NCBI RefSeq assembly: GCF_014208045.1
Contig: NZ_JACHML010000001.1
Coordinates: forward strand, 2,852,001 to 2,916,000
Direction of reading: 5' to 3'
DNA: 64,000 nt
DNA from: Microbacterium thalassium
GTDB lineage: Bacteria > Actinomycetota > Actinomycetes > Actinomycetales > Microbacteriaceae
The first letter of the stretch is position 1, and each line of letters begins with the position of its first letter. Made by a program: the position numbers and the translations under genes. The notes under the pieces were generated by a model that made no database searches, was not told the origin of the DNA, and saw only the letters and a list, made by a program, of their open reading frames with translations. Below are positions 32,479 to 47,064 of the stretch, one piece after another.

Positions 32479-33717
32479 TCAGGCCAGCAGCGTCTCGCCG
32501 ATGTAGCCGCCTTCGGCGCAGCCGGGCGGTATCGCGAACACGGCGGAGCCGATCGGCGTCGTCCACTGGTTCAGCAGGTCGAGTTCGTCCAGGCGGCGCT
32601 GGATCGGCACGAACTGACGGTCGACGTCCGCCTGGAACGAGACGAACACGAGCCCGGAATCGGAGATCTCGCCGGCTGCGGGCGACTCGTCGTAGTTGAA
32701 CGAGCGGCGGAAGATGCGCTCGCCCTCGTCGTCGCTGCGCGATCGGCGCATGTGCGAGAACTCGGGGATCACCGGGAACCCGATGGGCGTGGTCGCCTCG
32801 AAGTCGGGCTCGTCGTGCTCGTCGGCGCCCGTGAGCGGCGCGCCGTTGGCGAGGGTCCGTCCGACCGACTGCTCGCGGCCCGAGCGGTCGAGCTTGTCCC
32901 AGCCCTCGAGGTCCATGGCGATGCGGCGCACGACCATGCTCGTGCCGCCCGCGAGCCAGCCGTCCGAGCTCCACACGACGCGGTCGAACTCCGCGGTGCC
33001 CGGCGTCGCATTGGCGGTGCCGTCCACCTGTCCGAACAGGTTGCGCATCGTCGTGCCGGGCGCCACCGACCCGTGGGCGCGGCGGAAGCCGCTCTGCGTC
33101 CAGCGCACCGACGCGAAGCCGCGCGCGTCCTTCAGCAGCATGCGCGCGGCGTGCGAGACCGTGAGCGCGTCGTCGGCGGCGATCTGCAGCAGCAGGTCGC
33201 CGCCGTCGTGGGTGCCCGCGAGCCGGTCGATCGAGAACGCCGGCAGCGGCTGCAGCCACGCGGGCCTGGCGCCGCCCGCCCGCTCGACGAAGCCGGGGCC
33301 GAACCCGAAGGTCACCGTGAGCCGCGCGGGCGCGACGGCGAGCTCGGGCTCGGAGTCCGCCAGTGCCGCTTCGCCCTGCGTGAGGCGGCGCGCGTCGTCG
33401 GTGAGGATGCTCATCATGCGGCGAAGCCCGTCGCGGTCGACGTCGTCGTGCAGATCGAGGGCGACGAACAGGCCGTGAGCCTGGGCATCCGTGTCGATCC
33501 CCGCCTGGTGGACGCCGTGGAAGGGAACCGTGACGGTGCCGTTGAGCGGCGCCTGCGCGGACGCGGTCGCCGCGGCGTCCTCGCGTCCGCCGTTCAGCGC
33601 GTAGTCGATGCCGATGGCGGCCGCCGCCCCGGCCCCGACGACGGCCCCTCCGAGGAGGAACTGCCGCCGGGTCGAGGCCGCCCGACCGGGGCGCGGCTCC
33701 CGGTCGGAGGGGGTCAC
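32479..33717 (-). CDS. Dye-decolourising (DyP-type) heme peroxidase, Tat-exported, EfeB-like
   Basis: 412 residues. Tat signal with twin arginines at 17-18 (TRRQFLLGG) and a hydrophobic stretch. The DyP motif GQVDG (229-233) gives the distal Asp232; His322 in PEFSHMRRS is the likely proximal heme ligand and RRSFNYD (337-343) is family typical. EfeB-type DyPs oxidise substrates with peroxide outside the membrane and have been linked to iron release from heme. Here it is the last gene of copC-PCu(A)C-dyp, its GTG overlapping the upstream stop, rather than an efeUOB operon. This may mean copper-linked peroxide chemistry, or heme/iron uptake under copper control. Confidence 0.92.
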   Translation of the reverse strand: MTPSDREPRPGRAASTRRQFLLGGAVVGAGAAAAIGIDYALNGGREDAAATASAQAPLNGTVTVPFHGVHQAGIDTDAQAHGLFVALDLHDDVDRDGLRRMMSILTDDARRLTQGEAALADSEPELAVAPARLTVTFGFGPGFVERAGGARPAWLQPLPAFSIDRLAGTHDGGDLLLQIAADDALTVSHAARMLLKDARGFASVRWTQSGFRRAHGSVAPGTTMRNLFGQVDGTANATPGTAEFDRVVWSSDGWLAGGTSMVVRRIAMDLEGWDKLDRSGREQSVGRTLANGAPLTGADEHDEPDFEATTPIGFPVIPEFSHMRRSRSDDEGERIFRRSFNYDESPAAGEISDSGLVFVSFQADVDRQFVPIQRRLDELDLLNQWTTPIGSAVFAIPPGCAEGGYIGETLLA

Positions 33718-34244
33718 TCGTCCATCTCCATGTCGTCCTCGCCCTCGTCGTAGTTCTCGTTCGCGCCGCTGAAGTCCTTGACGGGCGCGGTGAACTCGAG
33801 GGTCGACTCGTCGGAGAAGGTGAGCGTGATGGTGACCTCGTCGCCGGCGGCGAGGGGGCCGGTCAGGCTCATGAGCATGATGTGGTCGGCGCCCGGCTCG
33901 AGCACGTGGGTGCCGCCGGCGGTGACGACGAAGCCGCCGTCGACCTCGCTCATCGCCATCTCGCCGTCGTCGCCCATCGCGGTCTCATGCAGCTCGACCA
34001 TGGCGGCGGCGTCCGTCGAGGCGGCCACGACGGTGACGTCGGCGCTGCCGTCGTTCTCCAGCTCGGCGAAGGCTCCGGTCATGCCCTCATCGGCGGCCTT
34101 GACCCAGGCGTCCGAGACGGTGACGACGTCGGCGGCGGCGGAGACGGCCTCATCGCTCGAGGCCGACGTGCCGGTCGCGCAGCCGGTCAGGGCGAGGGCG
34201 GCGACGGCGGCGAGGACGCCGAGGCGGGTGGTGCGTGCGATCAC
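33714..34244 (-). CDS. PCu(A)C-type copper chaperone lipoprotein
   Basis: 176 residues. Lipoprotein signal with lipobox ALTGC (Cys22), then a PCu(A)C (DUF461) cupredoxin-like domain. Copper ligands fit the family pattern: His86 (VELHETAM), Met96/Met98, and His121-x-Met123 (DHIMLM). It should hold Cu(I) outside the membrane and deliver it, typically to cytochrome oxidase Cu-A. A short acidic Met-containing tail (DDMEMDE) follows. GTG start overlaps the copC stop; its stop overlaps the peroxidase start. The segment VTITLTFSDESTLEFTAP (137-154) recurs with one change in the repeats of the SGNH hydrolase at 42684-44597. Confidence 0.92.
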   Translation of the reverse strand: MIARTTRLGVLAAVAALALTGCATGTSASSDEAVSAAADVVTVSDAWVKAADEGMTGAFAELENDGSADVTVVAASTDAAAMVELHETAMGDDGEMAMSEVDGGFVVTAGGTHVLEPGADHIMLMSLTGPLAAGDEVTITLTFSDESTLEFTAPVKDFSGANENYDEGEDDMEMDE

Positions 34245-34873
34245 AGGGATTCCTTTCGGTCTTCCGACCCGGCGGAATTCGTGCCGGTGCCGGTGCCGCC
34301 GGCGACGCTCGCGCGGCGGCGGATGAGGGTGACGGCGGCGAATCCGGCCGCGGCCACGGCCGCCCCGATCCCGCCGATCAGGACGACACGTGGAATGCCG
34401 CCCTCCTGTGTGATCTGAGTTCCGGTGTCGCCCGACGCCTCCGCCTCGGAGTCCCCCGACGCGCCCGCGGCGCTCTCGCGCGCGAGCGGCTCGGCATCCC
34501 CGACGGTGAAGGGGATGAGCCCGCTGATCGGGTGGCCGTCGGCCGACACGACGCGCCAGCGCACCTCGTAGCCGGCGTCGGGCATGCCCTTCTCGAGGGG
34601 CGCGACGACGGTGCCCTCGCGGATCTCGAGGTCGCCGTCGACCCAGTCGGCGCCCGATGCGTCGACGACCACGATCACGGCTCCGACCGTGAGCACCTCG
34701 TCCGTGAACTCCAGCGTGACCTGGGCGGGGGCCGCGGCGAGCGCGGCGTCCTCGGCGGGGTCGCTGCGGACGAGGTCGTCGTGGGCGGATGCCGGGACGG
34801 CGGCCGACAGCGCGGCCGCGGCGGCCAGCGCGACGGCGACGCCGAAGCGCGAAAGGGAGCGGACAGCGGACAT
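34241..34873 (-). CDS. CopC-domain copper-binding membrane-anchored protein
   Basis: 210 residues from ATG 34873. Signal peptide ends in VPASA, so mature protein begins His-Asp (AHDDLVRSDPAEDAAL): the N-terminal His is the classic CopC Cu(II) ligand. The domain ends with RVVSADGHPISGLIPFTV, giving another ligand His. A linker and one C-terminal transmembrane helix (about 170-192) plus RRR anchor it. It should bind Cu(II) on the outer face. First gene of the coupled copC-PCu(A)C-DyP set (GTGA overlap). Two stacked hairpins (34909-34951) sit just upstream. Confidence 0.92.
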   Translation of the reverse strand: MSAVRSLSRFGVAVALAAAAALSAAVPASAHDDLVRSDPAEDAALAAAPAQVTLEFTDEVLTVGAVIVVVDASGADWVDGDLEIREGTVVAPLEKGMPDAGYEVRWRVVSADGHPISGLIPFTVGDAEPLARESAAGASGDSEAEASGDTGTQITQEGGIPRVVLIGGIGAAVAAAGFAAVTLIRRRASVAGGTGTGTNSAGSEDRKESL

Positions 34874-34908
34874 GAAGGGACCTTCCCCGTGCGTGAGCAG
34901 GCGGATCG

Positions 34909-34951
34909 GCCGCCCGGGGGCGGCGCGACGATCCGACCCCGGAGGGGTCGG
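34909..34951 (-). terminator. Two consecutive hairpins upstream of copC
   Basis: CCGACCCC/GGGGTCGG (34933-34940 with 34944-34951) and GCCGCCC/GGGCGGC (34909-34915 with 34918-34924). They lie in the 89-bp gap between the membrane gene (ends 34963) and copC, so they probably terminate or attenuate transcription from that gene. Confidence 0.55.
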
Positions 34952-34962
34952 TGCGACAGGAC

Positions 34963-35571
34963 TCAGATCACAGGGAGGAGCGGGGGTCCGCGGCGCCGGA
35001 CGGCGCCGACGCGCAGCCCGAGCGGCGTCGGCGCGTCGACGGTGGCGATGGCGACCCGCGGCCCGGTGCCGACGGGTGCCAGGGGCGTGAGCGCGCGCGT
35101 GACGGCGCGGCGAACCCACGAGCCGAGTCTCGCCGCGAGGTTCAGCAGGGCGACGAGGGCGCGCTCGCCGCGGTGGAGCATCGCGATCGTGATGACCGCG
35201 GCGATGCCGTGGGCGATCCACATGAGGGGATCCGCGGCGAGCGGGACCCCGAGTGACTCGGCCGACAGCGCGAGGGCCTCACCGTGATGGTGACCCGGGG
35301 TCGATGCGGCGGCGGGGTCGACGGCCCCGAGGACGAAGAGCCCGTGGAAGAGCAGCTGGCTGAGGATCACACCGGCCGAAAGCCGCGCGAGCGACAGAGC
35401 CCGCCCCGCGAGCATCGTGCAGATCGCCACCGACAGCACCCACGGCACGGCCACCCCGAGCCAGCCGGGGACGCCCCCGCCGCCGGCCACGTGCGACATC
35501 AGCGCGATGAACGTGGCGACCGAAGCCGCGACCGAGCCCCGCAGGACGCGGAGGGCTCGGGTCGGACGCAT
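34963..35571 (-). CDS. Small polytopic membrane protein beside copC
   Basis: 202 residues with about four hydrophobic helices (residues 9-30, 36-57, 60-85 and 110-130) and a polar, Arg-rich C-terminal third. The loop STPGHHHGEAL contains three adjacent histidines facing the outside in the likely topology, which would suit copper binding. I chose ATG 35571 (MRPTRALRV) because GGGAGG lies 9 bases upstream; ATG 35580 is too close to that site. It precedes the copC operon on the same strand, separated by hairpins. Family not recognised; a role in copper handling is a guess from position. Confidence 0.7.
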   Translation of the reverse strand: MRPTRALRVLRGSVAASVATFIALMSHVAGGGGVPGWLGVAVPWVLSVAICTMLAGRALSLARLSAGVILSQLLFHGLFVLGAVDPAAASTPGHHHGEALALSAESLGVPLAADPLMWIAHGIAAVITIAMLHRGERALVALLNLAARLGSWVRRAVTRALTPLAPVGTGPRVAIATVDAPTPLGLRVGAVRRRGPPLLPVI

Positions 35572-35689: not shown

Positions 35690-35847
35690 CGCCCCAATCC
35701 CACGGGTCGCCGCGGATGGAACTGGGGCCGCGGCGAGAACCGATGGGTCACGTGAGGGGCGCACGATGGCACGCTCGGCTCGGTTCGTCGCGCGCGCGAG
35801 GATGCTTCCACGGATGGCCGCACACCCCGACGCGAGAGGCTGACTCT

Positions 35848-36516
35848 GTGACGATCCCACGAACGACGCGCACCGCCGCGACCGCCCTGGCCCTGCTGAT
35901 CGCCGCCACGATGCTCCCCGGGTGCGTGCAGCCGGCGCCGGAGCCGTCCGCTTCGCCGTCGAGCAGCGAATCGGCGACGCCGACGCCCACTCCCGAGCCC
36001 GACCCCGAACCCGCCGCACTCGAGGTCTCGCTCGACGGGATCGACCTCGTCGACAGCGCGGAAGACGTCACCGCGCGGGCCTCCTTCGACGACGGCGCGG
36101 GGGTCCTGTCGTTCCTGGGAGACGCGCTCGGCACCACCCCCGAGGGCACCCCGAACGCCCAGGGCTACCCGATCACGTTCTACGACTGGGGCGACATGTC
36201 GGTCTCGGTGATCGACGACGGCCCTGCGACCGTGTGGATCGCCGCGGCCGCGACAGGCGGGCTCGAGCTGCGCACGACCGAGGGTGTGACGGTGGGGATG
36301 ACGCGCGAGGAGGCGATCGCGCTCGGAGCTGTGCCGGATCGCGACGAGACCGGCGACGGGCTTCCCGATCTGCTGCGCCTGCAGGTGCGCGAGGCGCCGG
36401 GCACCGAGTCGTTGGAGAACCCCGGGGAGACGGGTGTGGACTTCATCCTCGTGATCCTCGAAGGCGACGCCGTCGTTCGGATGATCAGCCCCGCGAGCGA
36501 CTGGGGCGATCTGTAG
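35848..36516 (+). CDS. Hypothetical lipoprotein A, paralogue of 40004-40696
   Basis: 222 residues from GTG 35848, preceded by GAGAGG. Signal peptide with lipobox TMLPGC (Cys about 26), then a Ser/Thr/Pro linker with a TPTPTPEPDPEP run, then a domain of about 170 residues. The domain holds DWGDMSVSVIDDG, AAAATGGLELRTTEGVTVGM, a calcium-loop-like DRDETGDGLPDL and ends VVRMISPASDWGDL. The lipoprotein at 40004-40696 has the same order of motifs and the same end. The two flank the gluzincin and MBL genes. No family recognised. The DxDxTGDG stretch could bind a metal ion. Confidence 0.75.
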   Translation: MTIPRTTRTAATALALLIAATMLPGCVQPAPEPSASPSSSESATPTPTPEPDPEPAALEVSLDGIDLVDSAEDVTARASFDDGAGVLSFLGDALGTTPEGTPNAQGYPITFYDWGDMSVSVIDDGPATVWIAAAATGGLELRTTEGVTVGMTREEAIALGAVPDRDETGDGLPDLLRLQVREAPGTESLENPGETGVDFILVILEGDAVVRMISPASDWGDL

Positions 36517-36585: not shown

Positions 36586-38643
36586 ATGGTCACCGACGCA
36601 GGCGACGCGCCGCCGGTCGCGCCCGCCGTCCCCACGCCCAGCCGCCGCGTGCTGCGCGCGTTCGCGTTCGATCCGATGTCGACGCGGCTGACCAGCCGGT
36701 ACCTGCGCGTCGACGTGCCGTTCGAGACCGACCTGCAGCCCGGGCCCGCGGGCGGCCTGCTCGAGGTCGTCGACTACGACCCGTCCCGGCGTGTGTGGTA
36801 CCGCCCCGTCGACCTCAACGACCCGTTCATCCTGGCCCAGCAGGGGATGCGCCCGTCGGAGAGCGACCCGCGGACGCATCAGCAGATCGTGTACGCCGTC
36901 GCGATGAGCGTCATCGAGCGGTTCGAGCGGTTCGGCGGCCGGCGCTTCCGCTGGGTGGGCGACGAGCGTCTCAAGCTCGTGCCCCACGCCTTCGAGGGCC
37001 GCAACGCCTACTTCGATCCGTCCCGCAACGCCGTGCTGTTCGGCTACTACCGGGCCTCGGCCAGCGACCCGGGCGCGAACCTGCCGGGTCAGCTCATGTT
37101 CACGTGCCTGTCCGTCGACATCATCGCGCATGAGGTGACCCACGCGATCGTGAACCGTCAGCGCCCGCTGTACCAGTACGCGACGAACCCCGACGTGTAC
37201 GCGTGGCACGAGGCCTTCGCCGACCTCGTGGCGCTGTTCCATCACTTCCTGTTCCCCGAGGTCGTCACCGACGCGATCGCGACCTCGCGCGCCGAACTCA
37301 GCCAGGCGGACGCGCTGCTCGATCTCGCGAAGGAGTTCGGCGAGTCCACCGGTCGCGGTGAGGCGCTGCGCAACGCCATCCGGGGCGATCGCACGCCCGA
37401 CGCCTTCCTGCAGGCGACCGAGCCGCACGCGCGCGGCGCGTGCTTCGTCGCGGCGGTGTTCGACGCGTACGTCGACACCTACAAGGAGGCCATCGCCGGC
37501 CTGCGGCGCCTGGCCACCGGAGGCAGCGGCGTGCTGCCCCCGGGTGCGCTGCCGCCCGACCTCGTCGACCTCGCCTCGAAGCAGGCCGTGCGCCTGGCGG
37601 ACCGGTTCCTGGGCATGGTCGTGCGCGCCTTCGAGTTCCTGCCCGTCGTCGACGTCACCCTCGGCGACGTCGTGAAGGCGATCGTCACCGCCGACCGCGC
37701 TCTCTTCCCCGACGACGACAACCGCCTGCGGTCCACCCTCGTCGAGGCGCTGCGCCGCCGCGGCATCCGTCCCACCGGCGTGACGTCGCTCGCGGACGAG
37801 GCGCTGGCGTGGGACAAGCCGGCGCACCCGCTGAATCTCTCGACCGGGCCCGGCGGCGCCGATCTCAGCATGCTCATCATCGACGCCACGCGCCGGCTCG
37901 ATGTGAGCGACCGCGGCTCGCACGACGAGCAGGCCGGTGCCGGCGATGACGACCCCGCGGTGCGCGGACGCCGGATCGCCTCGGATCTGCACGGCTGGGC
38001 GACCGCGAACGCGGCGACGCTGGGGCTCGACCCCGACGACGCCATCCAGGTCAGGGGATTCCACGTCGCGTACCTGAATGCCGCCGACGGGCAGTCACGG
38101 CCGGTGGCCGTCGTGCAGCTGCTGCAACGGCGCGAGGACCTCGAGGACGCGGGGGCGAGCAAGGACGAGCGGGTGCCGATGCACGCGGCGACGACGGTGA
38201 TCGCCCGGGTCAACGGCACCGTCGAGCATCTGGTGCCAAAGCCCCTCCCGTTCGCCGCGATCCGCCGGGCGGAGGAGGCGGCGAAGGCGGCGAAGGCCGC
38301 ACAGCTCGCCGCGCGCGACGCGCCGGACGCCGAGGTGGCGGCGCTGGCGCTCGAGGCCGAGAAGCGCGCGAACGACCTCATCGACGTGATCGCCGCCATC
38401 GCGGAGCGGTTCCATACGAGCGCGGATGTCGTGCGGCACTTCCACGCCATGGGCAACGAGCGGCTCCGGCGCCTCGAGAGCTGGCAGGAGAAGGTCGCCG
38501 AAGACGATCCCCTCACGCCGTGGTTCACCGAGCCCGCCGTCAACCGGCTGAACTTCGCGCGGTTCCACGCAGCCGAGGCGGTGGCGGCCCAGCCCGAGCC
38601 GGCGGACGTCGGGCCTGCAGAAGCCGAGGGGGCAAGGCCATGA
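36586..38643 (+). CDS. Large gluzincin-like metallopeptidase-domain protein
   Basis: 685 residues, no signal peptide. HEVTH (182-186) followed 22 residues later by WHEAFADLVALF gives the zinc ligands His182, His186 and probably Glu209, with Asp213 in the position of the conserved Asp of thermolysin-type (M4-like) enzymes. The N-terminal 180 residues contain a beta-rich region and NAVLFGYYRA, seen before the HExxH in this class. C-terminal parts are helical, with an Ala/Lys/Glu-rich coiled-coil-like stretch (about 560-600) and a final segment similar in composition to adaptor regions. It ends ATGA with the MBL-fold gene, so the two are co-translated. Secretion is not evident, so an intracellular target is likely. 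Function unknown. Confidence 0.75.
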   Translation: MVTDAGDAPPVAPAVPTPSRRVLRAFAFDPMSTRLTSRYLRVDVPFETDLQPGPAGGLLEVVDYDPSRRVWYRPVDLNDPFILAQQGMRPSESDPRTHQQIVYAVAMSVIERFERFGGRRFRWVGDERLKLVPHAFEGRNAYFDPSRNAVLFGYYRASASDPGANLPGQLMFTCLSVDIIAHEVTHAIVNRQRPLYQYATNPDVYAWHEAFADLVALFHHFLFPEVVTDAIATSRAELSQADALLDLAKEFGESTGRGEALRNAIRGDRTPDAFLQATEPHARGACFVAAVFDAYVDTYKEAIAGLRRLATGGSGVLPPGALPPDLVDLASKQAVRLADRFLGMVVRAFEFLPVVDVTLGDVVKAIVTADRALFPDDDNRLRSTLVEALRRRGIRPTGVTSLADEALAWDKPAHPLNLSTGPGGADLSMLIIDATRRLDVSDRGSHDEQAGAGDDDPAVRGRRIASDLHGWATANAATLGLDPDDAIQVRGFHVAYLNAADGQSRPVAVVQLLQRREDLEDAGASKDERVPMHAATTVIARVNGTVEHLVPKPLPFAAIRRAEEAAKAAKAAQLAARDAPDAEVAALALEAEKRANDLIDVIAAIAERFHTSADVVRHFHAMGNERLRRLESWQEKVAEDDPLTPWFTEPAVNRLNFARFHAAEAVAAQPEPADVGPAEAEGARP

Positions 38644-39920
38644 CGAGGGCGAAGACCACCGCGACGGTCCGCATGTACGACGTGGGGTTCGGCGACGCGT
38701 TCGTGGTCACCGTCACGCGGTCCAAGAAGGTGTGGCGGATGCTGGTGGACTGCGGCGTCTCCCGGTCGAGCCAGACCCGCCCGATCGCCGAATCCGTGCG
38801 GGCGATCATCGACGATCTGACGGCCGTCGCCCCGGCCGGCTCGCCGCCCCGCCTGGACGTCGTCGTCGCGACGCACCACCACGCCGATCACATCGCCGGA
38901 TTCGCCGATCCCGCGTGGGAGGAGGTGGACGTGGGCGAGGTGTGGGTCCCGTTCGTCGAGGATCCCGATGACGCCGACGTGCGGGCGCTGCGATCGGGCC
39001 AGTCGCGTGCCGCGCACGCGCTGACCGCCCTCATCGACGACGCGACGCGGCGCCTGGCCGCCGACGACGACCCGCACGCGCGTGACGCGCTCGCCATCGC
39101 CGCGGTGTTCGCGGCCAACTCGTCGGGGAACGACGTCGCGAGCGACCGGCTGCTCGGGCGCAACGGGCTGTCGTTCCGCAACGCGCCGCCGGTGAGGTAT
39201 CTGCCGGACGTCGAGCCCGACCGGAACGTGATCGCCACGACGATCCCGGACACCGTCGTGCACGTGCTCGGGCCCTCGCGGGAACGCGAAGACCTCCGGC
39301 GCATGAATCCGCCCAAGGCCGTGCGGTGGCTGCAGCTGGCCGCCGACGAGCGGATGGACGACGTCGACGACGAGCACCCGCCCTTCGAGCCGGCCTACAC
39401 CGTGCCGATCGGAGCGCTCGAGACAGAGGTCCCCCAGGTGCTGCGCGACGCGCAGCGGGCGCTGAACCTCAGCCCGATCGCCGACGAGGCGGACGAGCTC
39501 CTCGCCGCGTCGTCGCTGCTGGAGAACGCGGTCAACAACACCAGCGTGTACTTCGTGCTGGACGTCGACGGCACCCGGCTGGTGTTCGTGGGCGACTCCC
39601 AGTACGGCGCGTGGCGGCATGTGCTCGACGACCCGGAGTCGCGGGCGCTCGTGACCCAGCCCGCCTTCTACAAGGTCGGGCATCACGGGTCGCACAACGC
39701 CACCCCCAAGGAGTACGTCACCGAGGAGCTCCTCGGGCGCGGCCACGTCGCCATGATGCCCTTCCGCCTCGTGCCGCAGTGGCCGTCCATCCCCGAGCAC
39801 AAGCTGCTGGACGAACTGGAGGACCTCGACACCCACGTCATCCGCGCCGACGATCCCGAGGGGCCCGACGTGACGGTCGACGAGGACGGGCTGTGGAGCG
39901 AGGTGACGTTCACGGCCTGA
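38640..39920 (+). CDS. Metallo-beta-lactamase-fold hydrolase (ComEC-like type)
   Basis: 426 residues, no signal peptide. The motif HHHADH (79-84, i.e. His79-x-His81-x-Asp83-His84) is the dinuclear metal site; VFVGDSQYGAW supplies the bridging Asp and YKVGHHGSHNATP a further His. The start MYDVGFGDAFVVTV is like the MYxVGQGDs opening of ComEC/Rec2-type MBL domains, which cleave nucleic acids or other phosphodiesters. A long insert (about 90-300) lies between the halves. ATG 38640 overlaps the gluzincin stop, so the products probably act together. Substrate not deducible. Confidence 0.8.
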   Translation: MTRAKTTATVRMYDVGFGDAFVVTVTRSKKVWRMLVDCGVSRSSQTRPIAESVRAIIDDLTAVAPAGSPPRLDVVVATHHHADHIAGFADPAWEEVDVGEVWVPFVEDPDDADVRALRSGQSRAAHALTALIDDATRRLAADDDPHARDALAIAAVFAANSSGNDVASDRLLGRNGLSFRNAPPVRYLPDVEPDRNVIATTIPDTVVHVLGPSREREDLRRMNPPKAVRWLQLAADERMDDVDDEHPPFEPAYTVPIGALETEVPQVLRDAQRALNLSPIADEADELLAASSLLENAVNNTSVYFVLDVDGTRLVFVGDSQYGAWRHVLDDPESRALVTQPAFYKVGHHGSHNATPKEYVTEELLGRGHVAMMPFRLVPQWPSIPEHKLLDELEDLDTHVIRADDPEGPDVTVDEDGLWSEVTFTA

Positions 39921-40003
39921 TCCGAGCGGCCCGTCTCGTCACGGTCTTCCCGCTGTCCACAGGGCGTCCGGACGCGGTGTCGCCACAGGCTACCGTCGGA
40001 GCC

Positions 40004-40696
40004 ATGCGCGCACCGTCACGGCTCCTGTCCCTCGTCGGCGTTCTCGGTCTCTCGCTGGCGCTCGCGGCGTGCGCTTCCGCCCCGCAGGCCTCGGGCGCGT
40101 CGCAGTCCCCGTCGCCCGCGGCGTCCGCCGACGCAGCGCCGAGCCCCAGCCCGACCCCCACCGCCGAACCCGAGCCGGACGCGATCGTCGTGTCCTCCGC
40201 GGGCATCGCGCTCGAGCGCGCCGACGAGACGGAGTGGGCGACGTACGACGACCCCGACGCGGTCGTGCAGCTGGTCACCGGCGCGACCGGTTCCGCTCCC
40301 GAGTACACCCACGAGGAGCACTGGGGCGCCGAGACCGGCTACGACTTCGGTCCGCGCGACCTGTACGAATGGGCGGGGTTCTCGGTGAGCGTCAACGGAG
40401 AGCGGGCCTCCGTCGCGGTCGACGCCGCGGCCACCGGAGGCATCGGGATCCGGACCGATGCGGGCGTCGCGGTCGGGAGCGATCGCGAGGTCGTCGTGGC
40501 CGCGGGCGCCTGGGACGAGTGGGACTCCGACGGCGACGGCGCCGCCGACTACCTCGGTCTCGACCCCCTCGAGGTGCCGGGGACGACCTCGCTGACGCGC
40601 CCCGACGCCGTCGGCATCCTCTACGTCCTGCTCGTCATGGACGGCGATGTCGTCAGGCAGATCCAGGCGCCGGGCAACGACTTCTCGGACCTGTAG
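40004..40696 (+). CDS. Hypothetical lipoprotein B, paralogue of 35848-36516
   Basis: 230 residues from ATG 40004. Lipobox LALAAC (Cys about 23), a Ser/Pro/Ala linker, then the same domain as lipoprotein A: EWAGFSVSVNGERASVAVDAAATGGIGIRTDAGVAVG, then DSDGDGAADYLGL (EF-hand-like DxDxDG loop) and VVRQIQAPGNDFSDL at the end. The duplication around the gluzincin/MBL pair suggests one functional cassette. It starts 83 bp after the MBL gene. No known family recognised by eye. Confidence 0.75.
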   Translation: MRAPSRLLSLVGVLGLSLALAACASAPQASGASQSPSPAASADAAPSPSPTPTAEPEPDAIVVSSAGIALERADETEWATYDDPDAVVQLVTGATGSAPEYTHEEHWGAETGYDFGPRDLYEWAGFSVSVNGERASVAVDAAATGGIGIRTDAGVAVGSDREVVVAAGAWDEWDSDGDGAADYLGLDPLEVPGTTSLTRPDAVGILYVLLVMDGDVVRQIQAPGNDFSDL

Positions 40697-41605: not shown

Positions 41606-42484
41606 TCAGGTTCCGGCGATGATCTCGGCGACCTCGCCCGCACCGCCCATGAAGCCCGCGAGGTCCGTCTCCTCCTCGCGCGGCTGCAGGATGACCGACG
41701 TGGCGCCGGCCGCGAAGAACGGCTCGATCGCCGCGGCGACGCCCGCCGCGTCACCGGCGACCAGCAGAGTCGGGTCGACGGCACCCAGCATCCGTTCCAG
41801 GTCTCCTGCGAGCCGAGCGCGCGCGTCGTCGCCGCCGAACGCCGTCGCGACGAAGACGGTGAGCTCATGCGCGCCGTCGCGCCCGGCATCCGCCCTGCCT
41901 TCGAGGGCGAGGGCGAGGGTGCGCGCGACGCGTTCGGGGCTGCTGGTCGCGGGCAGCACGGTCCCGTCGCCGACCTGCCCCGTCAGCCGTACGGTCTTGG
42001 GCCCCTCACCGGCCACGACCACGGGAGGCGCGGTCACCGGCGGCCAGTCGAGCCGCACGCGGTCGAGCGTGACGTAGCGGCCGCTCGTGCTGACCTCCTC
42101 ACCGGCCAGCAGCGACCGGAGGGCGGGAACGTACTCGCGCATGAGCGTGAGCGGCGACGCCGCGCGCGCCCCGACCTGCGCCATCCACGGCAGGACGCCG
42201 TGACCCACGCCCGGAATGAGCCGCCCGGGGAACAGCCGCTCGATCGTGGCGATCTCCATCGCCGTGAGGGCGACGTTGCGCAGCGGCATCGGCGCGACCC
42301 CGATGCCCACGCGCAGCCGCGCGGTCCAGGCCAGGACGGCGGATGCGGCCGCGAACGCCGACTCGCGGAAGCAGTCCTCCCACAGCCACAGCTCGGGAAC
42401 CCCGGACTCGTCGGCCGCCTGCGCGGCATCGCGAAGCGCCTCGGGCGGCGAGAAGGGCGTGAAGATGGCACCGATGCGTCGCAT
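41606..42484 (-). CDS. LLM-class F420/flavin-dependent oxidoreductase
   Basis: 292 residues, TIM-barrel luciferase-like family. Evidence: GAIFTPFSPPEALRDAAQAAD, LWLWEDCFRESAFAAASAVLAWT, RLRVGIGVAPMPLRNVALTAMEIAT, LFPGRLIPGVGHGV and the later PPVVVAGEGPKTVRLTGQVGDG. This arrangement is typical of the F420-dependent branch in actinobacteria, though the cofactor cannot be fixed from sequence alone. ATG 42484 chosen (MRRIGAIF). Convergent with the zinc-finger gene. Substrate unknown. Confidence 0.88.
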   Translation of the reverse strand: MRRIGAIFTPFSPPEALRDAAQAADESGVPELWLWEDCFRESAFAAASAVLAWTARLRVGIGVAPMPLRNVALTAMEIATIERLFPGRLIPGVGHGVLPWMAQVGARAASPLTLMREYVPALRSLLAGEEVSTSGRYVTLDRVRLDWPPVTAPPVVVAGEGPKTVRLTGQVGDGTVLPATSSPERVARTLALALEGRADAGRDGAHELTVFVATAFGGDDARARLAGDLERMLGAVDPTLLVAGDAAGVAAAIEPFFAAGATSVILQPREEETDLAGFMGGAGEVAEIIAGT

Positions 42485-42593
42485 GCGACCACTCTGACAC
42501 GGGCGGCGGACGCGCTCGGGATCTGCGGCCTGCGTGCCGTCAGGCCCTGCGCCGTGCCCTTCTGCCGGAGCCGCCTGCGCGCGTTCGCACCCG

Positions 42594-42683: not shown

Positions 42684-44597
42684 ATGGCCTATCGACGTGG
42701 GCGATTCTTCGCCCTTGCCGCCACTCTCTCGCTTGCCGCGCTCGTCGCGACGGCCGCGACCGCATCGCCCGCGATCGCCGCGCCGCCCGGGGACAAGGGC
42801 AAGCCGACCGCGACCGCGGCCGACTCCGTCACGGTCTCGGGCGCCTCGATCGAGGCCGCGGGCTCGGACTACGCCGTGATCGGCGACCTCTCGAACTCGT
42901 CCAAGAGCGCCGTCACGATCTCGTCGGCGTCCGCCGACGCAGGAACGGCCGAGCTCCACGACGGCACGGGAGTGGTCGCCGAGCTCACGGTCCCGCGCCG
43001 CAGCACCCTCACCCTCGCGGTCGACGGCGAACACATCCGGCTCTCCAACCTCCCGGAGACACTGCCCGCCGACGTCACGATCACCCTGACGTTCTCCGAC
43101 ACCTCGACCCTCGAATTCACCGCCCCGATGCCGGCCACCCCGCCGCCGCCCCCACCGGCACCCGTGGCCGACTCCATCACCGTCTCCGCCGCCTCGATCG
43201 AGGCCGCCGGCTCGGACTACGCCGTGCTCGCAGACATCGAGAACTCCTCCGCCACGGCCGCCACGATCTCGTCGGCATCCGCCGACGCCGGGACCGCCGC
43301 ACTGCACGACAGCACCGGCGCGGTCACCGAGCTCACCGTCGCCGGCGGCAGCACCCTCACCCTCGCGCCCGACGGCGAACACATCCGGCTCTCCAACCTC
43401 CCGGAGACACTGCCCGCCGACGTCACGATCACCCTGACGTTCTCCGACACCTCGACCCTCGAATTCACCGCCCCGATGCCGGCCACCCCGCCGCCGCCCC
43501 CACCGGCACCCGTGGCCGACTCCATCACCGTCACGAGCGCCTCGATCGAGGCCGCCGGCTCGGACTACGCCGTGCTCGCAGACATCGAGAACTCCTCCGC
43601 CACGGCCGCCACGATCTCGTCGGCATCCGCCGACGCCGGGACCGCCGCACTGCACGACAGCACCGGCGCGGTCACCGAGCTCACCGTCGCCGGCGGCAGC
43701 ACCCTCACCCTCACGGTCGACGGCGAACACATCAGGCTCTCCAACCTCCCCGAGACACTGCCCGCCGACGTCACGATCACCCTGACGTTCTCCGACACCT
43801 CGACCCTCGAATTCACCGCCCCGATGCCGGCCACCCCGCCGCCGCCCCCACCGGCGCCGTCCGTGTCCGTGATGGCCGCCGTCGGCGACTCGATCACCGT
43901 GGCCTACGACGCGGCCGGATACGGCTCGTACCCGCAGTACAGCTGGGCGACGGGCTCCTCGACCACCGTCGACTCCCACCTCCTGCGACTGCAGGACACG
44001 CTGCAGTCGAGCGTGACGGCGACGAACCTCGCCGTCGTCGGGGCGTCGTCCGCCGATCTGGCGTCGCAGATCACCTCAGCCGTGAGCGCGCGTGCCGACT
44101 ACCTGACCATCGAGATCGGCGCCAACGACGCGTGCACGAGCACCGTCGCCGAGATGACGTCGGTCGCCGACTACGACCAGCGCATCCGGGCCGCGCTGCA
44201 GACCTTCCACACCGCTCGCCCCGACGCTGAGATCTTCGTCGCCAGCATCCCGAACCTCTACCAGATGTGGAATGTGTCCAAGGGCAAGTTCGCGGCACGA
44301 TTCACCTGGAGCATCGCCGGGATCTGCCAGTCGATGCTCGCGAACCCGACGAGCACCAGCCAAGCCGATGAGGACCGCCGGCTGAGCGTGCAGCAGCGCG
44401 TCGACGACTACAACGCCGCCCTCGCGGCGGCGTGCACGGCGACGGTGAACTGCACGTTCGACGGCTACGAGGTCGCGGACTACGTCTTCAGCTCGAAGGA
44501 CGTGTCGACCTCCGACTACTTCCACCCGAGCGTCGAGGGCCAGCGGGTGCTCGCGGAGATCACGTGGCCGCTCTCGCCGTTCGCGAGCGGCGGATGA
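42684..44597 (+). CDS. Secreted SGNH/GDSL hydrolase with three degenerate PCu(A)C-like repeats
   Basis: 637 residues. GAGGAG precedes ATG 42684. Signal peptide (about 1-32, ...SPAIAAPP), then three repeats of exactly 116 residues (about 47-162, 163-278 and 279-394), each ending in a PATPPPPPPAP hinge, then an SGNH hydrolase domain: GDS with Ser403, GAND with Asn481, and DYFH with Asp611/His614. Each repeat has the PCu(A)C layout: a LHD (His only), then GEHIRLSNL where the chaperone has DHIMLM, and VTITLTFSDTSTLEFTAP, which differs by one residue from the PCu(A)C lipoprotein at 33714-34244. The copper Met ligands are lost, so the repeats are probably structural or surface-binding. The hydrolase may deacylate a cell-wall or extracellular glycan or lipid. 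Confidence 0.88.
   Translation: MAYRRGRFFALAATLSLAALVATAATASPAIAAPPGDKGKPTATAADSVTVSGASIEAAGSDYAVIGDLSNSSKSAVTISSASADAGTAELHDGTGVVAELTVPRRSTLTLAVDGEHIRLSNLPETLPADVTITLTFSDTSTLEFTAPMPATPPPPPPAPVADSITVSAASIEAAGSDYAVLADIENSSATAATISSASADAGTAALHDSTGAVTELTVAGGSTLTLAPDGEHIRLSNLPETLPADVTITLTFSDTSTLEFTAPMPATPPPPPPAPVADSITVTSASIEAAGSDYAVLADIENSSATAATISSASADAGTAALHDSTGAVTELTVAGGSTLTLTVDGEHIRLSNLPETLPADVTITLTFSDTSTLEFTAPMPATPPPPPPAPSVSVMAAVGDSITVAYDAAGYGSYPQYSWATGSSTTVDSHLLRLQDTLQSSVTATNLAVVGASSADLASQITSAVSARADYLTIEIGANDACTSTVAEMTSVADYDQRIRAALQTFHTARPDAEIFVASIPNLYQMWNVSKGKFAARFTWSIAGICQSMLANPTSTSQADEDRRLSVQQRVDDYNAALAAACTATVNCTFDGYEVADYVFSSKDVSTSDYFHPSVEGQRVLAEITWPLSPFASGG
42822..43865 (+). repeat. Three direct 348-bp repeats inside the SGNH gene
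   Basis: Repeat starts (GACTCC) fall at 42822, 43170 and 43518, exactly 348 bp apart. Copies two and three are almost identical over their full length; copy one has diverged mainly in its first two thirds. The reading frame is kept (116 codons). This is a recent tandem duplication and could vary in copy number between strains. Confidence 0.9.
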
Positions 44598-46487: not shown

Positions 46488-46808
46488 TCACGCGACCTTC
46501 AGCGGTGTGATCGCAGCGACCTTGTCGCGCAGCGCGCGACGCTCCATCCGCAGCTCGTAGTGCGACTGGAGGTTCATCCAGAACTCCTCGGACGTGCCGA
46601 AATACCGCGCCAGACGGATCGCCGTGTCGGCGGTGATCCCCCGCTTGCCATGCACGATCTCATTGATGCGCCGCGGCGGGACGCCGATCGACACGGCGAG
46701 CTTGTTCTGCGTGATCCCGAAGCCCTCGAGGAAGTCCTCCTTCAGGACCTCCCCCGGATGAATCGGCTCGATCAGGTCACTCTCAGTGATCGTCGACGAG
46801 TTCGACAT
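46488..46808 (-). CDS. higA: HigA-family antitoxin
   Basis: 106 residues. I use the ATG at 46808 (MSNSST), which has GGAGG 8 bases upstream; an ATG at 46823 is the longer option. The XRE-type helix-turn-helix (residues about 30-80) has PIHPGEVLKEDFLEGFGITQNKLAVSIGVPPRRINEIVHGKRGIT, diagnostic of HigA addiction-module antitoxins, followed by RYFGTSEEFWMNLQSHYEL. It should bind and neutralise HigB and repress the pair through the palindrome at 47093-47107. Its start lies inside the toxin gene (26-bp overlap). Confidence 0.93.
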   Translation of the reverse strand: MSNSSTITESDLIEPIHPGEVLKEDFLEGFGITQNKLAVSIGVPPRRINEIVHGKRGITADTAIRLARYFGTSEEFWMNLQSHYELRMERRALRDKVAAITPLKVA

Positions 46809-47064
46809 CTTCCGCACCTCCATCTCTCCAGACGAAGCAGATGCGCCATTGCGCGTTCACTCGGATACTGTGCTGACCGCGACGGTCCCCCACCAGCTGC
46901 TCGAGCCGATTGCCCGGTGGGATCCGGAGATCTTCGACATCCTTCGCCGCGTGAACGAGTTCCAGCTTGCGCAGCGTCGCCCGCTGCACCACACGGTCGA
47001 CGCGCTTGACGTACTGCTCGTGCCAGATGCGCTCGGTGTCCTTGTTCCCGAACGATCTGATCAC
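46783..47064 (-). CDS. higB: HigB-type toxin (RelE superfamily mRNA interferase)
   Basis: 93 residues, GTG start at 47064. Hallmarks of HigB: IRSFGNKDTERIWHEQ at the start, then LRKLELVHAAKDVEDLRIPPGNRLEQLVGDRRGQHSIRVNAQWRICFVW. The Arg/Lys-rich core and the RVNAQWRICF strand match ribosome-dependent RelE-like nucleases that cut mRNA. The toxin gene comes first and the antitoxin second, the usual order for higBA. The flanks are simple lipoproteins and a membrane gene; no integrase or transposase is near, so it is not obviously part of a mobile element. Confidence 0.93.
   Translation of the reverse strand: MIRSFGNKDTERIWHEQYVKRVDRVVQRATLRKLELVHAAKDVEDLRIPPGNRLEQLVGDRRGQHSIRVNAQWRICFVWRDGGAEDVELVDDH

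Follow-up and report, generated by a model that had tools for sequence, protein, structure and literature searches.

PCu(A)C-like repeats without the copper motif form a tandem array in the linker position of a probably secreted SGNH hydrolase

PCu(A)C copper chaperones (Pfam family PF04314) have a primary copper site of the form H-Xn-M-X21/22-H-X-M, as described in the consulted sections of PMC13006917. The same sections report PCu(A)C-like proteins of methanotrophs that are devoid of the primary site, carry a histidine brace of the form HX10H, and have a presumed role in support of methane monooxygenase. The methanotroph proteins provide a precedent for family members without the usual ligands, and fusion to a hydrolase is not mentioned for them in the consulted sections of PMC13006917.

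Here, we analysed a 64,000-nucleotide stretch of DNA from Microbacterium thalassium (the window), in which one gene combines PCu(A)C-like repeats with an SGNH hydrolase. The repeats share the sequence profile, the hydrophobic pattern, and the C-terminal strand with PCu(A)C chaperones (AccA, PMC13006917; PDB entries 1x9l and 2jqa and, weakly, 9rf0 and 9rez). Unlike the chaperones, they lack the H-Xn-M-X21/22-H-X-M motif, are arranged in tandem, are fused to a hydrolase, and are shortened near the first Met ligand. The catalytic residues, four cysteines, and a signal peptide (judged by eye) are common to the window protein and the SGNH/GDSL hydrolases (PF13472, PF00657) of its genus and family, all of which, among those compared, lack the array, except for protein P0003 of strain GSS18. 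P0003 is 763 residues long, is 75% identical to the window protein in a pairwise alignment, and has the same architecture at the same locus; it differs in having four repeats and in the loss of the first His ligand.

The array gene is located on the forward strand at positions 42684..44597 and encodes a protein of 637 residues that begins with a signal peptide, continues with three PCu(A)C-like repeats, and ends in an SGNH hydrolase domain, all on that strand. The first-pass annotation of this DNA had its coordinates and reading frame right, as the ATG at 42684 is preceded by an AGGAG sequence ending five bases upstream, which makes a good start. The signal peptide (residues 1–32, 42684..42779), with cleavage placed by eye near AIA-A, is kept in the GSS18 protein. 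It is followed by the stem APPGDKGKPTATAA (residues 33–46, 42780..42821), which is near-identical in the closest array-less orthologs. Repeats 1, 2, and 3 span residues 47–152 (42822..43139), 163–268 (43170..43487), and 279–384 (43518..43835). Proline-rich joints with the sequence PPPPPPAPVA separate the first repeat from the second (residues 153–162, 43140..43169) and the second from the third (residues 269–278, 43488..43517), and a shorter proline-rich joint (residues 385–391, 43836..43856) precedes the catalytic domain of about 245 residues (392–637, 43857..44594). In the DNA, the array appears as three direct repeats spaced by 348 and 348 nucleotides, equal to 116 codons, of which the repeat domain occupies about 106. 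Nineteen-residue segments with a hydropathy above 1.6 are confined to residues 6–33, and the same segment scan of the array protein gave no second strongly hydrophobic stretch. No LPXTG motif was found in the protein and no lipobox Cys in its signal peptide. The hydrolase is probably secreted.

The whole array protein matches the PF04314 profile with 107 bits, and repeats 1, 2, and 3 individually score 40.9, 43.3, and 37.6 bits, each above the curated cut-off (29.4 bits); matches of this strength far exceed chance. The profile comparison, together with the 348-nucleotide period, bears out the earlier description of 116-residue repeats with a PCu(A)C layout, and it places the repeats in PF04314 and not in another family. 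A search of PDB sequences with the whole protein returned a single match at an E-value of 0.001, the PCu(A)C-type protein 1x9l (E 1.4e-5); repeat 3 by itself reached 1x9l, 9rf0, and 9rez at E-values of 0.025–0.1. A protein search with a single repeat gave nothing at an E-value of 0.001 among 6618 candidates, a set drawn through a word filter from a huge database, so that relatives may escape it. No NCBIfam match exceeded its cut-off for the three proteins tested. At alignment columns that are hydrophobic in at least 70% of the ordinary lipoproteins of the family, the repeats have a hydrophobic residue in 129 of 186 cells (gaps counted as misses), compared with 27 of 419 at columns hydrophobic in less than 20% of lipoproteins. 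The core pattern of the family is therefore retained in the repeats although the copper site is lost. The C-terminal strand of PCu(A)C is retained as well, and the repeats would share the cupredoxin-like fold.

The ligands were compared with those of 72 PCu(A)C lipoproteins, of which 63 belong to other genomes within the genus and seven to the family, with the two local genes completing the set. Ligands were counted in all seven repeats (three of the window and four of GSS18), and the domain tree and the column counts used six repeat rows, as GSS18 copy 3 equals copy 2. A relaxed copper motif, H-X8..14-M-X18..24-H-X-M, is present in 72 of 72 lipoproteins and in none of the seven repeats, which thus belong to PCu(A)C by sequence yet do not carry the functional feature of the family. 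The seven repeat domains contain no Met, Cys, or Trp; one Met is located in the joint behind each window repeat domain. The earlier reading that HIMLM had become HIRLS is correct. The second Met is Arg in all seven repeats, and at the first Met the alignment shows a deletion, within a shortened stretch. The second His is kept in all seven repeats, and the first in three, all from the window; the corresponding position in GSS18 is Leu in copy 1 and Tyr in copies 2–4. Every repeat has also lost a Trp that all lipoproteins share (72/72), and the array protein has no tail rich in His and Met.

SGNH hydrolases are recognised by conserved blocks, with Ser in a GDS motif, the Gly of block II, Asn in GxND, and Asp and His close to the C-terminus. 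The catalytic domain of the array protein scores 63.7 bits against PF13472 (cut-off 32.9) and 56.7 bits against PF00657, GDSL lipase/acylhydrolase (cut-off 23.6), and by itself it matches the GDSL protein 3rjt in the PDB with an E-value of 8e-4. The SGNH tree and residue counts were based on 40 rows, from which homologues below 38% identity, identical rows, and, for their length, loci L048 and L050 were left out. Within this set, which includes the window and GSS18 proteins, S403, D611, and H614 are conserved in 40 of 40 rows and N481 in 39; the G401-D402-S403 motif and four cysteines are conserved in 39 or 40. The candidate for the block II Gly, G453 (in VVGASS), is kept in GSS18 and lies outside the columns conserved in 95% of the 40 rows. 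Since the catalytic residues and the four cysteines are conserved, the domain is probably active.

The array is rare. The repeat part was compared twice with a collection of about 5.8 billion proteins; proteins of about 350–1115 residues sharing short words with the query were considered, and the best 7990 candidates were scored in the first search and 1626 in the second. P0003, with its four repeats, was the one other array protein among the candidates scored. Among 366 genomes of the genus, with the best two candidates of each scored, the array was present in the window genome and GSS18 only (the GSS18 gene product there is a 100% match to P0003). PF04314 matches as such occur in 62 of 198 genomes sampled from the 366 of the genus, 95 of 398 of a family sample (94 over the cut-off), and 79 of 396 of a phylum sample; the samples share some genomes, and GSS18 is outside the genus sample and was tested for PF04314 separately. 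The matches listed for the three samples include no further frame with two full-length PF04314 copies, and the few phylum frames with two partial matches each amount jointly to one domain. A genome scan with two peptide patterns, from which the window's own genome or very near ones may have been omitted, gave one relative, an ordinary PCu(A)C-like stretch from Leucobacter. Neither PCu(A)C arrays nor a PCu(A)C–SGNH fusion appeared in the titles and abstract openings of the open-licence papers that the literature searches listed. The suggestion that the domain combination is new is supported insofar as it is very rare in the sequences searched, where one further fusion, that of GSS18, was found.

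The strain of P0003 is listed at NCBI as 'Microbacter sp. GSS18' (taxid 3031917, our locus L089) under Bacteroidota, and its genome is grouped in the genus of the window. From the likely intended name of the strain and the look of its genes, we infer that the genus is Microbacterium (Actinomycetota). The database name of P0003 is 'copper chaperone PCu(A)C', although the copper motif is absent. The neighbourhood of the GSS18 gene corresponds to that in the window and comprises genes that we take, from their sequences, to encode a fructose-bisphosphate aldolase, GlpX, RmuC, an exonuclease, a methyltransferase, and YchF, followed by an alpha/beta hydrolase, the SGNH gene, a DksA/TraR-type protein, a metallo-beta-lactamase-fold protein, a large conserved protein, and a CopC–PCu(A)C–DyP cluster. 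Between the two genomes, the aldolase, GlpX, and YchF are 97–98% identical and the remaining neighbours, the SGNH protein apart, 75–94%. The SGNH domain differs by 22%, whereas GlpX, YchF, and the aldolase differ by 2–3%. The GlpX-like protein was compared in 20 relatives and is at most 91% identical outside its own genome, against 97% in GSS18.

Several other genes of the neighbourhood are worth recording. A luciferase-like monooxygenase gene directly precedes the SGNH gene on the opposite strand (41606-42490, reverse strand) and is unmatched in the 19 kb that surround the SGNH gene of GSS18. A HigB-like toxin gene (PF05015, 63 bits) with a helix-turn-helix partner (46488-47064, reverse strand) lies between the alpha/beta hydrolase and YchF-like genes; these two genes are about 0.5 kb apart in GSS18, and the toxin pair is unmatched in the 19 kb compared. 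Two small predicted lipoproteins (35716-36516 and 39326-40696, both forward) have no Pfam match and seem to be paralogues, since a single place in GSS18 matches the first with 76% and the second with 34%. A 685-residue protein (36586-38643, forward) is 90% identical in GSS18, has an HEVTH stretch resembling, by eye, those of metallopeptidases, and has no Pfam match at an E-value of 0.001.

The position of the array within the hydrolase becomes apparent from its nearest relatives. The three closest SGNH orthologs, from genomes G161, G717, and G156, are 62–68% identical to the window protein and have a signal peptide (by eye) and a stem containing GKGKPT, which corresponds to DKGKPT in the window protein and GKGKPS in GSS18; the G161 protein is 67% identical to the window protein over residues 4–51. 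Behind the stem, these orthologs have a linker of 38 (G161), 71 (G717), and 55 (G156) residues, consisting of 71–89% Pro and Thr and reaching the catalytic domain. The array including its joints takes up 346 residues in the window protein and 472 in GSS18. In the tree of 40 rows, the array pair (support 99/93) is sister to the linker trio (97/92), and the two groups are joined with support of 100/99. The near-identical stem and the Pro/Thr linker that follows it in the sister clade place the array where the relatives have their linker, which is presumably disordered. More distant homologues at 45–55% identity mostly have a signal peptide followed almost at once by the catalytic domain, and among those below 41%, a lipobox-like Cys together with a short tail is frequent (both by eye). 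Sister groups alone do not give the order of events; as the linker is simple and the array is found in two species only, the linker would be the older state. PF04314 matches are absent from genomes G161 and G156, and G717 has one, on another contig. In both array genomes, by contrast with G161 and G156, the neighbourhood of the array gene includes a PCu(A)C lipoprotein of the ordinary type.

In the window, this ordinary lipoprotein, the donor supposed by the first-pass annotation, is encoded at 33714..34244 on the reverse strand, has the full ligand motif, and matches PF04314 with 124.6 bits. It is flanked on the same strand by an open reading frame with a CopC domain (34241..35221; PF04234, 77.5 bits), the true start of which is probably further in by comparison with GSS18, and by a Dyp-type peroxidase gene (32479..33717; PF20628 and PF04261). 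The distance from the lipoprotein gene to the array gene is 8.4 kb in the window and about 6.3 kb in GSS18. The donor claim started from a one-residue difference that is real: VTITLTFSDTSTLEFTAP of the repeat and VTITLTFSDESTLEFTAP of the lipoprotein are identical at 17 of 18 positions, the best amino-acid match among 74 lipoprotein loci (next 15). The strand formed by these 18 residues is conserved across lipoproteins, and in nucleotides the same codons match the neighbour at 44 of 54 positions and three other lipoproteins at 45. Over the whole domain, compared with 70 of the 74 loci and the two local genes (L030, which equals L037, L079 and L080, which were entered as the local genes, and L151, a fragment in the wrong frame, were left out), several other lipoproteins are as near to the repeats as the neighbour or nearer. 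When 18-residue segments are slid along the domain, the neighbour is the best match in the last segments of window repeats 1 and 2 and GSS18 copies 1 and 2, and for window repeat 1 also near the first ligand; in the segments of residues 7–36, it ranks 65–71 of 72 for window repeat 1 and GSS18 copies 1 and 2, and 5–29 for window repeat 2. Synonymous distance was considered as a donor test and rejected: the median pS is 0.42–0.48 whichever query is used and the local lipoproteins differ from each other by 0.36, so that the measure holds little signal (the two local genes rank 11–38 of 72 for the repeats). The domain tree separates the repeat clade from the two local lipoproteins, and forcing them together costs 13.4 log-likelihood units, at an AU p-value of 0.207 that still allows a common clade. 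Derivation from the neighbouring gene is therefore not borne out by the nucleotides, the whole domain, or the tree. Sequence comparison points to some PCu(A)C gene as the donor, with the neighbouring lipoprotein as one candidate.

The repeats form one clade in the domain tree (100/100), which makes a single capture the simplest reading. Window repeats 2 and 3 are 97% identical in DNA, GSS18 copies 2 and 3 are identical, and copy 4 has one change. The last 32 codons of window repeats 1 and 2 have the same DNA sequence, while the first 70 differ at 27% of synonymous sites, a pattern indicative of exchange between copies (homogenisation). The dN/dS ratio of window repeats against GSS18 is 0.80–1.08 for copies 2–4 and 0.55–0.65 for copy 1. 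Compared between the same species, the SGNH domain has a ratio of 0.32 and the lipoprotein one of 0.13; within genomes, copies that differ at synonymous sites have ratios of 0.44–0.77. Against GSS18 copies 2–4, the repeats have a pS of 0.16–0.19 (SGNH domain 0.37) and a pN of 0.15–0.17 (SGNH domain 0.15). The high ratio thus owes much to low synonymous change, and relaxed constraint on the repeats is only hinted at. The nonsynonymous excess relative to the SGNH domain is significant for window repeat 1 against GSS18 copy 2 (p-value of 0.022) and not for window repeat 2 against copy 2 (0.106) or window repeat 1 against copy 1 (0.287), and the data leave room for changing selection. Nonsynonymous change of the three window repeats against GSS18 copy 2 is about 10% in the C-terminal third and 18–20% elsewhere; the quieter third could be a constrained surface.

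With moderate confidence, we interpret the array as a captured, copper-less, and amplified set of PCu(A)C domains in a linker site, serving as a spacer or N-terminal tail and not as a copper chaperone. A PCu(A)C domain would have entered a secreted SGNH hydrolase in a single capture, in the ancestor shared by the window species and GSS18, at the site that links the signal-peptide stem to the catalytic domain. It would then have lost its copper site and been amplified to three or four beads with proline-rich joints. The resulting chain of small folded domains would substitute for the flexible linker and set the size, reach, and protease resistance of the enzyme, with the SGNH domain carrying out the chemistry after export. 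The first-pass annotation had proposed re-use of the fold as a spacer or a binding stalk. The spacer part is favoured, as orthologs carry a Pro/Thr linker at the place of the array; the stalk is doubtful, since there is no LPXTG motif, second hydrophobic segment, or lipobox Cys to hold the far end. The part N-terminal to the array revealed neither a module nor an anchor, and what the array spaces apart is not plain. It also counts against the spacer interpretation that only two array-bearing species are known and that amplification and high dN/dS fit neutral expansion too.

The main rival, as judged from the same sequences, is a binding role, in which the repeats would have lost copper and gained a face for a polymer, the cell surface, or the substrate, used multivalently. 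We regard such a new binding module as a possible but rather improbable outcome. Folded domains are costlier than a Pro/Thr tail, tandem copies are suited to weak multivalent binding, and the retained hydrophobic pattern and the lower amino-acid change of the C-terminal third also speak for this role. However, the between-species dN/dS of 0.55–1.08 exceeds that of the catalytic domain, the lack of any Trp leaves no obvious aromatic patch, and the quiet C-terminal third is also homogenised within genomes and conserved in lipoproteins. A full multivalent binding stack, in which the domain lost its metal site, was amplified at the place of a disordered linker, and acquired affinity for the polymer substrate of the enzyme or the surface of the producer, seems doubtful to us; if true, it would be a use of the PCu(A)C family resembling that of carbohydrate-binding modules, caught early, in two species.

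The array might also have expanded neutrally, or nearly so, in a site that tolerates inserts, and have no function of its own. The length of the site varies from 38 to 71 residues in the nearest orthologs, most homologues at 45–55% identity have almost nothing there, dN/dS reaches about 1, and the copy number is three in one species and four in the other. We nevertheless consider this explanation unlikely, because the array has stayed in frame in both species despite the 22% divergence of the SGNH domain (2–3% for GlpX, YchF, and the aldolase), the hydrophobic pattern of the family is retained, and the pN of the repeats barely exceeds that of the SGNH domain. That the repeats still handle copper, for instance Cu(II) through the two His retained in each window repeat, and couple the hydrolase to copper supply is highly improbable: the CopC–PCu(A)C–DyP cluster lies near the array gene in both species, and methanotroph relatives without the primary motif carry a His brace (consulted sections of PMC13006917), but both Met ligands are gone from all seven repeats and the first His from all four of GSS18, the His/Met-rich tail is missing, and PF04314 matches are absent from G161 and G156, the source genomes of two of the three nearest orthologs lacking the array.

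What is new at this locus is that a PCu(A)C-like array sits where sister-clade orthologs have a Pro/Thr linker after a near-identical stem. Automatic names can mislead here, as the 'copper chaperone' of GSS18 is a hydrolase by its catalytic domain. The natural linker variants of this one enzyme offer a way to ask what a folded spacer does beyond a disordered one. For the PCu(A)C family, the locus looks like a clear example, of recent date, in which a metal-binding domain lost its site and was put to another use, and the nearest relatives still display the alternative state.
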